From NCBI RefSeq assembly GCF_017114995.1, contig NZ_JABXKL010000101.1, positions 1 to 64,000 of the forward strand: a stretch of 64,000 nucleotides of DNA, given 5' to 3'. This DNA comes from Nostoc sp. NMS9 (GTDB taxonomy: Bacteria > Cyanobacteriota > Cyanobacteriia > Cyanobacteriales > Nostocaceae). Position numbers and translations under genes: made by a program. The notes under the pieces were generated by a model. It made no database searches and was not told where the DNA came from. It was given only the letters and a program-made list of their open reading frames with translations. Shown piece by piece: positions 31,806-36,144 of this stretch (its first letter is position 1; each line of letters starts with the position of its first letter).

Positions 31806-31917
31806 GTAAATATAGCGAAGCTGTCACCAGGGGCAAGATAGCCTGAAAGTACTGCTATGAATGACTTTCAGACTATAAGCTTCTCAGATATACTAACATT
31901 AGTATTTTTAGACACAT

Positions 31918-32130
31918 TCACCCCGTCTCAATTGGCAACCTAACATTGAGATCCAAATGAAAAGTACCATAGGGATTAACGTGACCCCAAATTAAAGGCG
32001 AAAGCGCCCGCAAATCTTCCAACTTCATCAACTTCATCCATTGTGATTGGGACAAAACCTGCTGAATCATTGTAGAAATTCTGGCAGTAAAAATTGCATT
32101 TGCAACACACGCATAGCATTACGTAATTGT
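31918..32130 (-). pseudogene. Tn3-family transposase (TnpA), C-terminal remnant
   Basis: On the reverse strand the frame gives IQQVLSQSQWMKLMKLEDLR, then ALSPLIWGHVNPYGTFHLDL, then NVRLPIETG and a stop at 31918-31920. The 'L-LSPLIW-HVNPYG-F-LD' ending is the hallmark of the TnpA C-terminus in Tn3-family transposases. No start and no catalytic domain remain; upstream the frame is preserved only to about 32130. It ends 67 nt inside the left inverted repeat, the usual place for tnpA. Confidence 0.6.
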
Positions 32131-32170
32131 TCTTTCTGAATAAAATAACGTTGAATCCCTTGCTAGTTAC

Positions 32171-32590
32171 GTGTCGCGGCTCAGGAAGAAACTCAATTTA
32201 ACTCAGTTTGAGTTGGCAGATGCTGCTGGTATACATGGACGCTCTGTCGGGAAAATTGAGCGGGGACTTACGGTCAAAATTAATTGTAGGACACTTCAAG
32301 GGTTAGCGATCGCGCTTGGCGTGCCTCAAGAATATTTGGATGCTGTGATCAAGGGTGAGGAAGTATCTCAGGTTAGAGGGGTTAAGTTTTGTCCCCAATA
32401 TTGGAATCCTGGCGCTGCGGTTGACCCTATGTGGGGTCATGTCAAAGCAAAGTTTTGTTATCTGTGCGGTACACCGATTCGAGCTAACTGCGCGAATTGC
32501 GGTGAATTGGTGTTGTCTTTAAGACACCGATTTTGTCCAATTTGTGGCTGTGCTTATAAAACGCCCGTCAAACCCGCTAAAACCCAATGA
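32171..32590 (+). CDS. XRE-type HTH protein with C-terminal double zinc ribbon
   Basis: 139 aa, probable GTG start at 32171. Residues about 3-60 are a Cro/C1-type helix-turn-helix (LRKKLNLTQFELADAAGIHG ... IERGLTVKINCRTLQGLAIALGV). The C-terminal half has four Cys pairs: CPQYW, CYLCGTPIRANCANCGE and CPICGCAY, typical of a zinc-ribbon or double-zinc-ribbon module. It is likely a DNA-binding regulator, carried as cargo between the inverted repeats of the Tn3-type remnant. The start codon sits directly after the decayed tnpA, so its promoter may have been created by the rearrangement. The first helix may be truncated at the N-terminus. Confidence 0.6.
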   Translation: MSRLRKKLNLTQFELADAAGIHGRSVGKIERGLTVKINCRTLQGLAIALGVPQEYLDAVIKGEEVSQVRGVKFCPQYWNPGAAVDPMWGHVKAKFCYLCGTPIRANCANCGELVLSLRHRFCPICGCAYKTPVKPAKTQ

Positions 32591-32638
32591 TGAACTATTT
32601 TTTCTCAAACCTAGATTCCACAATACTTTCAGGCTATC

Positions 32639-32851
32639 TTGCCCCTGGTGACAGCTTCGCTAGATTTACGCCAGAATACGGTTGATATGTCGTTGGCTAT
32701 CCAAACGTTAATGTCACAGGGAGAATTGATTCCCATGCGACACCTTGCTGCTTTGAGTCCATACATAACAAGACGTATCAAAAAATACGGTGATTATGTA
32801 GTTAATTTACATAATATTCCCCAACCAGGGAAAACGCATCTTATTTACTAA
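32639..32851 (+). pseudogene. Second Tn3-family transposase C-terminal fragment
   Basis: 70 codons open across the right inverted repeat: LDLRQNTVDMSLAIQTLMSQ, then MRHLAALSPYITRRIKKYGD and YVVNLHNIPQP. The 'L--LSPYIT--IK-YGDY--L' ending is the TnpA C-terminus of a different Tn3 subgroup from the one at 31918, and it points the other way. Its upstream part is missing. The Tn3-type element with inverted repeats therefore appears to have inserted into, or recombined with, another tnpA. No usable ribosome site; not expected to be functional. Confidence 0.5.
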
Positions 32852-33080
32852 TAAAAACTAAAAGAGATTTTAACCTGACATAGATAATTGTAAAAATTGA
32901 TAAAGTTATAAATAAAATAAATCAATTATTCCCTTAAAACATGGATTATATTATCTCCCCAGGAATCACTATTTATTAATAGTAAATATCTTCAATGAAT
33001 AAGTGTATACAAGTATGTTTATCTAGGGGAAAAGTTTCACTTTTCCGCAAAATTCCAAATTCAAGTTTTGCTATATTAGT

Positions 33081-33806
33081 TTAAGCTAACGCTAAAACTC
33101 TTGCTAAATAGTTATCATCCATCGCGGCGAGAAACTGTTTATTTTTTATTCCGCGTTTCACACGCTTCTCTTTACCTAAAAGATTGACTGCAATCTGCCG
33201 CAATACAGCAAAATTCTGTGGAGCATTATTTTTTCTAATCCGACATTCATCTTCTCTTAAAGCGACATCTAATACCCAATGCAATGAATTCTCAATTCCC
33301 CAATGACTGCGAACATAGTTAGCAAATTTCCGAGCATTTTCCTCAATACTACTAATGAAATAACGAGTCTCCACCGTTGTATTTCCATCTTCGGAGCGGA
33401 CGGACTCTACCATGCCAATACTATTAAAATTTGTCCAAACTGAATCAGGGTCAAGCCGAGATTTAATTCCAGATAACATCACGTAGTGGCGAATTTCATG
33501 ACGACCATGCCCTGTTTCTTCTGTTTTATACGTGCTATGTTGAAGCTCTTGAAAACCTGTGCTTATCTCTAACTTAAATAGTTTTTCTACCTCCGCATAC
33601 AGATTACCTTGGTTCTTTTTTAAGGTAATTACGTAATCTGCATTTTGCTGTGTAATTAACTTCACTATCTCTTTCTGGCACCCGATTGCATCAATCGTTA
33701 CAATACATCCAGCTAATTCTAAAACCTTTAATAGTTCTAGAATTGCTGTAATTTCATTTGAGGCAATTGTGATTTTGGGCTTGAGTTTCACAGGCTGTGG
33801 CTTCAT
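33081..33806 (-). pseudogene. ISAs1-family transposase, 5'-truncated
   Basis: 241 codons on the reverse strand. The conserved part begins at SNEITAILELLKVLELAGCI and includes VTIDAIGCQKEIVKLI (DDE first half), YVITLKKNQGNL, ETGHGRHEIRHY, YFISSIEENARKFANYVRSH and WGIENSLHWVLDVALREDEC, all hallmarks of ISAs1-family transposases. Full-length members have roughly 110-130 further residues at the N-terminus. Here the first few codons (MKPQPVKLKPKITIA) are foreign, so the IS is truncated next to the CRISPR-transposon vestige. The intergenic sequence from 32852 to 33080 holds no gene. Confidence 0.75.
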
Positions 33807-33867
33807 TTTACTTTGAGAATGAGAATATCATGGTCGAGCGATGCCTGCGGCGGGCTACGCCTACGCA

Positions 33868-33940
33868 CAAGCGCGGATACTCCTGAAGTTGTTCGTTTCG
33901 CCATCACTCAACCGATACAAAGCCCCATCAGGAACTTCTG
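33868..33940 (+). ncRNA. Vestigial Cas12k-type (V-K) tracrRNA 3' portion
   Basis: GCGCGGATACTCCTG at 33871 and then ATCACTCAACCGATACAAAG near 33903-33922 follow the order and spacing I recall for the 3' half of type V-K tracrRNA (GCGCGGAT..., then ATCACCCCCGATCAAGG). Stem complementarity looks eroded. The 5' part is replaced by a cyanobacterial GCGATGCCTGCGG repeat at about 33838. It precedes the CRISPR repeat on the same strand, as in V-K elements. Assignment rests on memory of the family and on context. Confidence 0.45.
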
Positions 33941-34061
33941 ATACAAGTCTTGCACAATACCTCACTTAACCAGCTTGATAGTTTCTTTGTACCACTTTGT
34001 CAAAATTTAGATGCGTTTGCCCTGAGGAAAAATGAGACTTTGCATGATAATACTTTTTTAC

Positions 34062-34191
34062 GTTTCAAAAGCATTCCTAGCTAGAGATGGGCTGAAAGAA
34101 AACTCTGAAAATTGACAATTTTTTTGGGGAGAGTTTTACAAACTTCTCTTAAAAATAGGTGGGTTGAAAGATTGGTAAAAGTCATGGAATT
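34062..34191 (+). CRISPR. Mini CRISPR array of a type V-K transposon with a delocalised homing spacer
   Basis: A 37-nt repeat (34062-34098; begins GTTTCAAAAGCATTCC, ends GATGGGCTGAAAG) has the same length, ends and roughly three-quarters of the bases of the V-K repeat I recall (GTTTCAACAACCATCCC ... GGTGGGTTGAAAG). A 35-nt spacer follows (34099-34133), then a degenerate 37-nt repeat (34134-34170) that keeps only the conserved 3' end AGGTGGGTTGAAAG. The next spacer starts at 34171. Its first 21 nt are identical to the last seven codons of mutL (34429-34449, opposite orientation). This layout, a weak last repeat and a short self-matching spacer beside the transposon end, is that of a homing crRNA. 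Confidence 0.8.
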
Positions 34192-34309
34192 CTTGGACTA
34201 ATGGGACAAAAACTTGTCAACTTACAGCAATTTTCATTTCTTTGAACCACAAATCCTCATATAGTGGTAAGAGGATGTTTGAAAAGTTATCCAGACTGTC
34301 TAATGAACA

Positions 34310-34388
34310 CTAATTTGTCAATGCGGACATTTATCTGTCAATATGGACATTAATTTCTCAACGCAGACAAATAATTTGGCAAACGACA
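34310..34388 (-). mobile_element. Right end of a type V-K CRISPR-associated (Tn7-like) transposon
   Basis: Read inward on the reverse strand, TGTC boxes start at 34388, 34369, 34349 and 34329 (steps 19, 20, 20). The inner units follow TGTCnnnnTTGAnAnATnAA. Such arrays are TnsB-binding repeats at the ends of Tn7/Tn5053-like elements and CASTs. The outermost base at 34388 lies 61 nt beyond the PAM-proximal edge of the mutL protospacer. The element body lies to the left. The 5-bp target duplication should be CCATT (34389-34393). No matching left end was found in this window. Confidence 0.8.
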
Positions 34389-34452
34389 CCATTTTTACAG
34401 CTATTATAATGTATTGCCAAAAACATCAAATTCCATGACTTTTACCAATTAC
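34389..34452 (-). other. CAST attachment site: mutL 3'-end protospacer, GTA PAM and spacing
   Basis: On the mutL strand the order is GTA (34452-34450, a GTN PAM), a 21-nt protospacer covering codons IGKSHGI (34449-34429), the mutL stop (34428-34426), then 37 nt of non-coding DNA to the transposon end. The 61-nt distance from PAM edge to insertion point is within the 60-66 bp rule known for V-K elements. Insertion downstream of the stop codon leaves mutL intact. Confidence 0.78.
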
Positions 34453-36144
34453 CCAATTACGCCGGAAAAACCGAGCTAAAGCTGATTCTTCTAAGGATAG
34501 ATAAATTGGGCGTCCGTGGGGACAGGTGCGGGGGTTGCGAGTGCGTTGCCAATTATCTAAAAGTGTCTGCATTTCTTGTTGATTCATCGGTGTACCGTTA
34601 CGAATGGCACTGCGACAGGCGACAGCTACTTGGGCTGTTTGTAAATCGCCTCCCCAACTAAGTTCTAAAATTGCTTCTGCACAGTCGTCTCGCTGCTGCA
34701 AAGGTGCGGGGATATTACGGACTGCCCAAAGTTGTTCGCCAAAGGGTTCTATTTCTAAACCGATGCGTTGCAGTTGCGATACTTGCGCTAGCGATAATTG
34801 ATAAAGAATTATTGGCGGTTCGACGGGTACAAGTTGCCAATCATCGCATAATTGTTCATACAAAACTCGCTCATGGGCAATGTGCTGTTCTACTAACCAC
34901 ATACCACCTGAATGTTCCGCCACAATATAAGTGTTGCTAACTTGAGCGACAGCTTTTAAGGAGTTAGGAGAGACGCGATTAATCGCGTCTGTACAAGGGT
35001 TGGGATTTTGAGGATTGAAATTGTAACCACCTTTGGCTTCTGCGGCTTTGAGTAATTTACTAACTCGTGTTGTGTGAACAGCTTCTTTGAGATTGCTAGA
35101 AGAGATGCTGAGTGCTTGGTTAATTGCTTGGGTAATTTGCTCTTGCCAATAAATGATTTCGTTGAGGTAAATTTCTGTTTTTGCTGGATTGCGATTCCAG
35201 TTAATTTGATCGGGGGAAATGGCAAGATGTAAGAAACAAATTGGATAGCGATCGCGCGGTAATGTTCTGTGAAATGCTGATAATATCGTTTGCTCTAGTT
35301 CCGGTGTCTTCACCATCCTGCCGTTAATGGCTACACGTACCCAATCTGGACGATGACGATGACAGCGATCGGGTAATCCTACCACTAAATTTAGTGCAGA
35401 GTGCTGAGTGAGGAGTGAGGAGTTAGGAGTTAGGAGTGAGGAGTTTAGTGGGTTGGGTATTTCGAGTTTTACTTCCTGCAAGTCACCTTGTCGCACTTGC
35501 GGTAAAATCTGCGGTAGCAACTGCCCAGTTGTGGCAGCGGGACAGATGGTGAACCATTGACGGTCATTTTGCCAAATCTGCCAGGTGACGTGCGGATGAC
35601 AAAGGGCGATTTGTTGAATTGCGGCTTGCACAGCTTTCATTTGCTGTGCTGTTGTGGGTAATCCCTGACGACGAGATGAGCAATTACCAAAAAGATGGGA
35701 AACTGTAACTACTGTACCAGGTGCGATCGCAGTTGCTTCAATTTGTACAACTTTCCCGCCATCGCCATAAATTATCCGCCATCCTAATTTTCCACCCAGA
35801 GGACGACTCAAAATTTCCAAATCTGCCAGAGTCGTTAAACTGTGCAACGCCTCACCACGAAACCCTAAACTGTTAATTTTCCACAAATCAGCACTAGAGC
35901 GAATTTTACTAGTGCTGTGGGCTGTGGCTGCTTGTTGCAAATCATCTAGGTTCATTCCACAACCATTATCTGCCACACGAATTCGCCATTGCTGCGGCCA
36001 CAGAGAAACCACAATTCGCGTTGCACCTGCGTCTAGGGAATTTTCTACCAATTCCCGCACCACAGAAGCTAAAGAGTCGATTACCTCTCCAGCTGTAATG
36101 AGATATACGACTTCTGTTGGTAGAGCTTGAATAGTAGATGCCAT
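34426..36144 (-). CDS. mutL: DNA mismatch repair protein MutL
   Basis: 572 aa. The N-terminal GHKL ATPase has the expected motifs: ELVENSLDAGATRI (about 31-44), DNGCGM near 59 and GFRGEAL near 94. The C-terminal dimerisation/nuclease region has EQHIAHERVLYE (about 424; an E replaces the usual leading D of DQHAxxE), CRSAIRNG (about 511) and the metal-site CPHGRPIYLSL (about 541). MutL couples MutS mismatch recognition to strand incision. Two repeat-derived insertions sit in the flexible linker (LNSSLLTPNSSLLTQHS near 232-250; CTDAINRVSPNSL near 381-394). The 3' end is the homing target of the adjacent CRISPR-transposon vestige. Start ATG 36144 gives MASTIQALP, normal for cyanobacteria. Confidence 0.92.
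   Translation of the reverse strand: MASTIQALPTEVVYLITAGEVIDSLASVVRELVENSLDAGATRIVVSLWPQQWRIRVADNGCGMNLDDLQQAATAHSTSKIRSSADLWKINSLGFRGEALHSLTTLADLEILSRPLGGKLGWRIIYGDGGKVVQIEATAIAPGTVVTVSHLFGNCSSRRQGLPTTAQQMKAVQAAIQQIALCHPHVTWQIWQNDRQWFTICPAATTGQLLPQILPQVRQGDLQEVKLEIPNPLNSSLLTPNSSLLTQHSALNLVVGLPDRCHRHRPDWVRVAINGRMVKTPELEQTILSAFHRTLPRDRYPICFLHLAISPDQINWNRNPAKTEIYLNEIIYWQEQITQAINQALSISSSNLKEAVHTTRVSKLLKAAEAKGGYNFNPQNPNPCTDAINRVSPNSLKAVAQVSNTYIVAEHSGGMWLVEQHIAHERVLYEQLCDDWQLVPVEPPIILYQLSLAQVSQLQRIGLEIEPFGEQLWAVRNIPAPLQQRDDCAEAILELSWGGDLQTAQVAVACRSAIRNGTPMNQQEMQTLLDNWQRTRNPRTCPHGRPIYLSLEESALARFFRRNWVIGKSHGI
34966..35002. repeat. Interspersed palindromic repeat inserted in mutL linker
   Basis: GAGACGCGATTAATCGCGTC (34970-34989) is a perfect palindrome followed by TGTACAAGGGTT. 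This is a widespread cyanobacterial intergenic repeat; its tail also occurs near 9385. Here it is in frame and encodes the NPCTDAINRVSPN segment of the MutL linker. Confidence 0.65.
35398..35452. repeat. Heptamer tandem repeat inside mutL linker
   Basis: GTGAGGAGTGAGGAGTTAGG and further AGTTAGGAGTGAGGAG units: about six copies of the 7-mer GGAGT[TG]A, in frame. They encode the SSLLTPNSSLLTQHS segment of MutL. Short-tandem-repeat insertions of this kind are common in Nostocales intergenic DNA but unusual inside a housekeeping gene. Confidence 0.75.

Follow-up and report, generated by a model that had tools for sequence, protein, structure and literature searches.

A probable type V-K homing crRNA matching the 3' end of mutL in a CAST remnant of Nostoc sp. 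NMS9

The window, by which we mean the whole 64,000-nt stretch of DNA analysed, carries mutL on the minus strand and, beyond the stop codon of that gene, a short remnant of one end of a type V-K CAST that is abutted on its other side by an IS. The features of the locus are the following.

32826..34024, no strand assigned: IS with 21-nt inverted ends, abutting the CAST remnant
33081-33806, minus strand: DDE_Tnp_1 transposase ORF inside the IS
34025..34388, no strand assigned: left (CRISPR-side) end remnant of a type V-K CAST, delimited by relatives' alignments and empty sites
34062..34098, plus strand: second-to-last degenerate CRISPR repeat (29/37), separated by 35 nt from the one that follows
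34134..34170, plus strand: degenerate repeat (24/37), the putative R* of the homing crRNA, ending in AGGTGGGTTGAAAG
34171..34191, plus strand: putative homing (anchor) spacer, 21 nt, equal by sequence identity to the mutL 3' end
34306..34388, minus strand: transposon end, read from the sequence, with TGTCG at 34388 and TnsB-like boxes at 34381, 34361, 34341 and 34321
34389..34393, no strand assigned: presumed 5-bp target duplication, CCATT on the plus strand, the other copy of which was not found
34426..36144, minus strand: mutL, 572 aa, the putative attachment gene, left intact
34429..34449, minus strand: protospacer, mutL codons IGKSHGI, by sequence identity
34450..34452, minus strand: PAM GTA, read from the sequence, a valine codon of mutL

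The match between the CAST remnant and the gene beside it is exact. Positions 34171-34191 are the reverse complement of 34429-34449, identical at 21 of 21 nt, and correspond to the final seven codons of mutL (IGKSHGI), a gene whose call is supported by Pfam (MutL_C, DNA_mis_repair and HATPase domains). The spacer starts immediately 3' of GTTGAAAG, the last base of which is 34170, and the protospacer abuts the mutL stop codon TGA (34426-34428). On the mutL strand a GTA PAM lies 5' of the protospacer (34452-34450). The first-pass annotation, made from the sequence alone, had reported this identity, its start after the conserved repeat end and its finish at the mutL stop, and each of these points was borne out. 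It had also judged coincidence very unlikely. Since the chance of 21 fixed bases at one site is about 2e-13 (arithmetic) and the same arrangement recurs in relatives, we agree and reject a chance match.

Compared with the 37-nt repeat of complete relatives, the repeat that precedes the spacer agrees at 24 of 37 positions, with the best other sites in the window reaching 23, and the repeat before it agrees at 29 of 37. The score of 34134-34170 alone is thus near background, and it is the conserved 3' end and the relatives that lead us to count it as a repeat. The two repeats are spaced by one normal unit (37 + 35 nt), so that the homing unit resembles a decayed array tail. In an alignment of six copies, the spacer and the 3' end of the repeat are invariant, the sole exception being one base in one relative (G044). 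Two further candidates, an RNA recognised by Rfam in the window and unusually stable folding in the crRNA region, were rejected (none at gathering scores; z of -1.1, not notable).

Homing of V-K elements by a separate truncated crRNA, mostly to tRNA genes, is known (from the parts of PMC11406308 and PMC9938897 used here), and the anatomy given in the section used of PMC9938897 comprises a truncated repeat, an anchor spacer of about 17 nt, a GTN PAM and 46-82 nt to the left end. The window copy has the degenerate repeat followed by a short spacer (34134-34170 and 34171-34191), and its protospacer, which has a GTN PAM, is located immediately beyond the left end. It departs from the description in that the target, usually a tRNA gene, is mutL; the source says 'usually', so tRNA genes are not exclusive targets. 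No tRNA gene was found in the 64,000-nt window, and a tRNA target within it was rejected on that ground.

The terminus of the transposon end, TGTCG, starts at 34388 on the minus strand, and behind it come four TnsB-like boxes at intervals of about 20 bp; the end lies 61 bp past the mutL PAM, within the published 46-82 nt, and shares homology with the ends of complete elements. The outer boundary of the element, 34388, is fixed by two empty mutL sites (L027 and L028), whose alignment with the window runs to exactly 34389. A 5-bp target duplication is a trait of Tn7-like elements, and CCATT directly outside this boundary would be one copy of it. On the inner side, alignments of the elements of four relatives (G012, G026, G036 and G044) with the window begin at exactly 34025. 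The IS at 32826-34024, whose 21-nt inverted ends are 86% complementary and around which no flanking duplication was seen, directly abuts this point. Because CAST sequence stops at 34025, at the adjoining IS, we regard the window copy as a remnant; its length in the window is 364 bp. About 35 nt within it (34215-34251) recur with 88-95% identity on six other contigs of the same genome, and this dispersed repeat is also present in many relatives.

No match to Cas12k, TnsB or TnsC was found on the contig of the window, so the copy does not have the Cas12k and transposase genes that a CAST carries inside, and it is classed as a V-K CAST-derived remnant, not as a CAST. Elsewhere in the genome, the single near-full Cas12k (contig C39) has an in-frame stop, and matches to TnsB are partial at two contig starts and otherwise weak; contig breaks may account for part of these partial matches. 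Neither the far end of the element nor TnsC was matched in the genome, in searches run without a positive control. Given the contig without Cas12k, TnsB or TnsC, the stop in the C39 gene, the partial TnsB matches and the unmatched TnsC, the window copy is probably immobile. As read from the sequence, the rest of the element may have been lost through an IS-adjacent deletion that left a relic. Much of the host DNA that lies 3' of mutL in the empty site L028 sits on another contig of this genome (C45), a placement that fits rearrangement.

The evidence for what the element once was comes from its relatives. In one of them (G026) a complete type V-K CAST of 17,890 bp adjoins mutL and is flanked by TCTGT at both ends. 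Its guide is the same 21 nt, it has four repeats with at most 4 substitutions each, and its genes are those for Cas12k (NF038191, 991 bits, no stops), a divergent MerR, type I restriction, TniQ, TniB/TnsC and TnsB. A second complete element with the same plan, 27,566 bp long, lies beside mutL in Nostoc linckia z4 (G012); its Cas12k scores 977 bits to NF038191 and has no stops, and its 5-bp flanks, which are simple repeats, are not identical. In both elements rve/Mu-transpos_C, TniB and TniQ follow one another at the far end, and a MerR_1 regulator is divergent from cas12k. With Cas12k, TnsB-TnsC-TniQ, 37-nt repeats and the divergent regulator, these complete relatives resemble known V-K CASTs, and they are also alike in the truncated repeat and short spacer near the left end, the GTN PAM and the 46-82 nt spacing (as given in the portions consulted of PMC9938897 and PMC11406308).

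The distance from PAM to end is 63 bp in G026, 64 bp in G012, 62 bp in G044, 58 bp in G048 and 50 bp in G036. The first-pass annotation had proposed looking beside mutL in related cyanobacteria for elements that end about 61 nt past the PAM; such elements were found at 58-64 bp, the complete ones with Cas12k. It had named the lack of any V-K element beside mutL as an observation that would speak against it, and the elements of G026 and G012 exclude this. Its broader claim, that the unit is a delocalised homing crRNA that targets mutL, is supported by the relatives, while the window contig itself has no match to Cas12k, TnsB or TnsC. Near the intact mutL and CAST remnant of G044 there are further decayed pieces of mutL, one of which has a 3' end of its own (L167, G044:C250:49897-50292).

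We then considered how widely the guide occurs. The guide pattern was matched in 10 of 217 genomes of the family, and the guide is present in 7 of the 217, namely in 6 of the 53 genomes of the genus of the window (its own included) and in one genome (G299) of another genus, g11. The remaining matches (G313, G081 and G314, each with 3 mismatches) share one common 26-nt match in open frames of 321-327 codons that belong to another gene and were excluded from the count as they are not repeat-spacer units. The order was sampled with 388 genomes, of which 71 belong to the family; matches were found in the genome of the window, G036 and G532. The last is the only match among the 317 sampled genomes outside the family (2 mismatches) and was not counted, having ATTGGTAAAAGGGTCGG after GGTTGAAAG and no continuation into mutL. 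The guide was found neither in plasmids nor, by exact match only, in viral contigs, sets from which records near the genome of the window are possibly absent.

Ends occur at mutL more widely than guides. In the fetched DNA, mutL has a V-K end next to it but no guide at three loci with strong resemblance (L023, L024 and L044) and at two with weak resemblance (L025 and L026); in genus g11, such ends lie 61 bp past the mutL PAM in G299, G111 and G159, again without a guide in the DNA fetched there. We scanned 79 of 80 mutL loci, leaving out one (L094) with no stop within the fetched DNA. Over 3.0 million positions on both strands, 5 sites score at least 19/23 to known ends and all 5 fall 58-64 bp past a mutL PAM, a result that is partly circular because the reference ends were picked after some of the loci had been seen. 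All 23 copies of the 21 nt in the fetched loci that have no preceding GTN PAM come after GGTTGAAAG; they represent fewer than 23 distinct places, as several fetched loci overlap. The same 21 nt beside unrelated repeats, which the first-pass annotation had listed as contrary evidence, was thus found in none of the fetched loci.

We next compared the guides with host genes. The PAM position is a GTN valine codon in 79 of 79 mutL loci. Of 128 mismatches to the spacer of the window across these loci, 124 are at third codon positions; the match is perfect in 16 of the 79 loci over 21 nt and in 25 of the 79 over the first 17 nt. The mutL of the window shares 94-95% identity with the mutL of several Nostoc and of one Desmonostoc. 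The first-pass annotation had proposed checking whether the spacer covaries with the mutL 3' end of each host, and this check supports its reading, with exceptions. In G299 the guide and the mutL of the same genome both read ATTGGGAAAAGTCATGG, with GGG, a change at a third codon position, where the guides of genus g1 have GGT. This guide is on a different contig from the mutL, and the 3 kb fetched around it showed no recognisable transposon end. Against strict covariation, the guide of G012 mismatches its host mutL at position 15 (CAT versus CAC) and that of G044 has one mismatch to its host mutL, at position 16. The agreement among the guides of genus g1 is not independent, owing to shared ancestry.

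Closely related elements carry guides to other targets. In a Cas12k tree of 11 sequences, some of them partial, the mutL-guided G012, G026, G036 and G048 group with two elements (G023 C32 and G044 C164). The anchor spacers of these two have a 17-nt match in a tRNA-Arg gene, next to a GTG PAM, and their Cas12k proteins are 93% and 94% identical, respectively, to that of G026. That elements with such similar Cas12k carry tRNA-Arg guides indicates that the address of this group switches; the inner forks of the tree are weakly supported, so it does not give the direction of the switch. As a positive control from the genome of the window, C39 has a truncated repeat followed by a 14-nt match to tRNA-Ala with a GTA PAM. 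For another element (G023 C48) an 18-nt match with a GTT PAM was obtained beside tRNA-Val, and for G028 C13, G028 C450 and G048 C135 no anchor target was recovered. The guide-bearing element of G036 (L183, contig C16) lies beside tRNA-Val (gac) and not beside mutL, and the mutL of that genome bears a different V-K end; it is possible that the C16 element landed by means of the guide of another element. In the genome of the window, V-K end boxes on C30 (L014:11600-11920) lie next to tRNA-Arg (ccg), a Cas12k fragment is located close by, and no anchor spacer was recovered there.

We interpret 34134-34191 as most probably encoding a V-K homing crRNA whose spacer would direct insertion 61 bp past the GTA, beyond the mutL stop (a reading from sequence to which we give a probability of roughly 0.93). 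Cas12k together with TniQ, TnsC and TnsB would have used the anchor crRNA to recognise mutL, and the element would have inserted downstream and kept mutL intact. A later IS-adjacent deletion may then have removed the interior of the element, leaving a copy that would now be immobile. We also think it likely, with less assurance, that a V-K lineage docks at the protein-coding mutL in at least two genera, reading it in frame with a valine codon as PAM and with almost all host variation at third positions, and that the homing crRNA works as an address label that can be exchanged, for either mutL or tRNA-Arg.

Other readings of the locus were weighed. The spacer could be a piece of mutL captured by recombination or gene conversion, with no role in targeting. 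It is general knowledge that mobile elements can acquire flanking host DNA, and both the window and four relatives (G012, G026, G044 and G048) have the guide at a short distance from mutL. However, the match starts exactly 3' of GTTGAAAG, comes with a GTN PAM and is conserved in the 17.9- and 27.6-kb elements; near-identical elements have a 17-nt tRNA-Arg match at the equivalent place, also with a GTN PAM; and the guide copy of G036 is away from mutL. Capture is therefore, in our view, very improbable. The window copy might also be a working mini-element mobilised in trans by other V-K machinery, given that one end and an intact guide remain and that G044 has a similar copy beside mutL on a contig without a Cas12k match. 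The searches of the genome, run without a positive control, found neither the far end nor TnsC, the Cas12k gene of C39 is interrupted by an in-frame stop, the closest matches to TnsB are partial ones at contig starts, and the interior of the element ends at the IS, all of which makes mobilisation in trans very unlikely.

A TnsD-like protein selector, not an RNA, could direct the element to mutL in the manner of TnsD at glmS, and TnsD systems do typically insert directly behind the end of a conserved gene. Yet the only TniQ in the 10 ORFs scanned in G026 and the 8 in G012 is short (168-169 aa), a matched guide is present, and all V-K CASTs are without an additional TniQ/TnsD for attachment sites, according to the part consulted of PMC11406308. 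We give this alternative hardly any weight and retain a homing crRNA as the means by which mutL is probably recognised.

The mutL elements can be placed among known systems. Prototypic Tn7 at glmS inserts just past the end of the conserved gene and leaves it intact, as the mutL element appears to do, and type I-F3 CASTs have protein-coding targets such as guaC and yciA. The latter, with a multi-subunit Cascade effector and a TnsA-type transposase, are a separate lineage that differs in both effector and transposase. They are similar in having a dedicated guide to a conserved chromosomal site, whereas Tn7 differs in that its target is read by the protein TnsD and not by RNA (both points from the portion used of PMC11406308). 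In contrast to known V-K CASTs, the target here is the 3' end of the protein-coding mutL, the guide identity extends over 21 nt where 17 is usual, and the window copy is a truncated remnant.

The first-pass annotation had suggested that mutL is new as an attachment gene, and mutL as a V-K homing target may indeed be new: it was not found as such in the literature searched, which did not cover the main attachment-gene surveys. The review already lists 'various conserved genes' among V-K homing targets, so that homing to conserved genes other than tRNA genes is allowed for and at most mutL as the target may be new (PMC11406308, as far as the text consulted goes).

If the reading is correct, RNA-guided transposons gain a docking site in a coding sequence, with a PAM locked in by the protein sequence, and guide drift and wobble tolerance become open to testing. 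Closely related elements with mutL and tRNA-Arg guides would permit the direct study of attachment-site switching, and the natural pair of mutL site and guide might serve to bring DNA into Nostoc at a safe site.

Two other observations concern the DNA on the far side of the IS. A 36-nt stretch at 32627 occurs inverted at 31813, flanking a gene with HTH and double zinc-ribbon domains (32171-32590), and 31813-32662 is perhaps a small mobile unit. Further upstream, a single plus-strand ORF of 7241 aa (9862-31587) has RTX calcium-binding repeats and FG-GAP, PA14 and Calx-beta domains, and lies outside the CAST element as far as seen.
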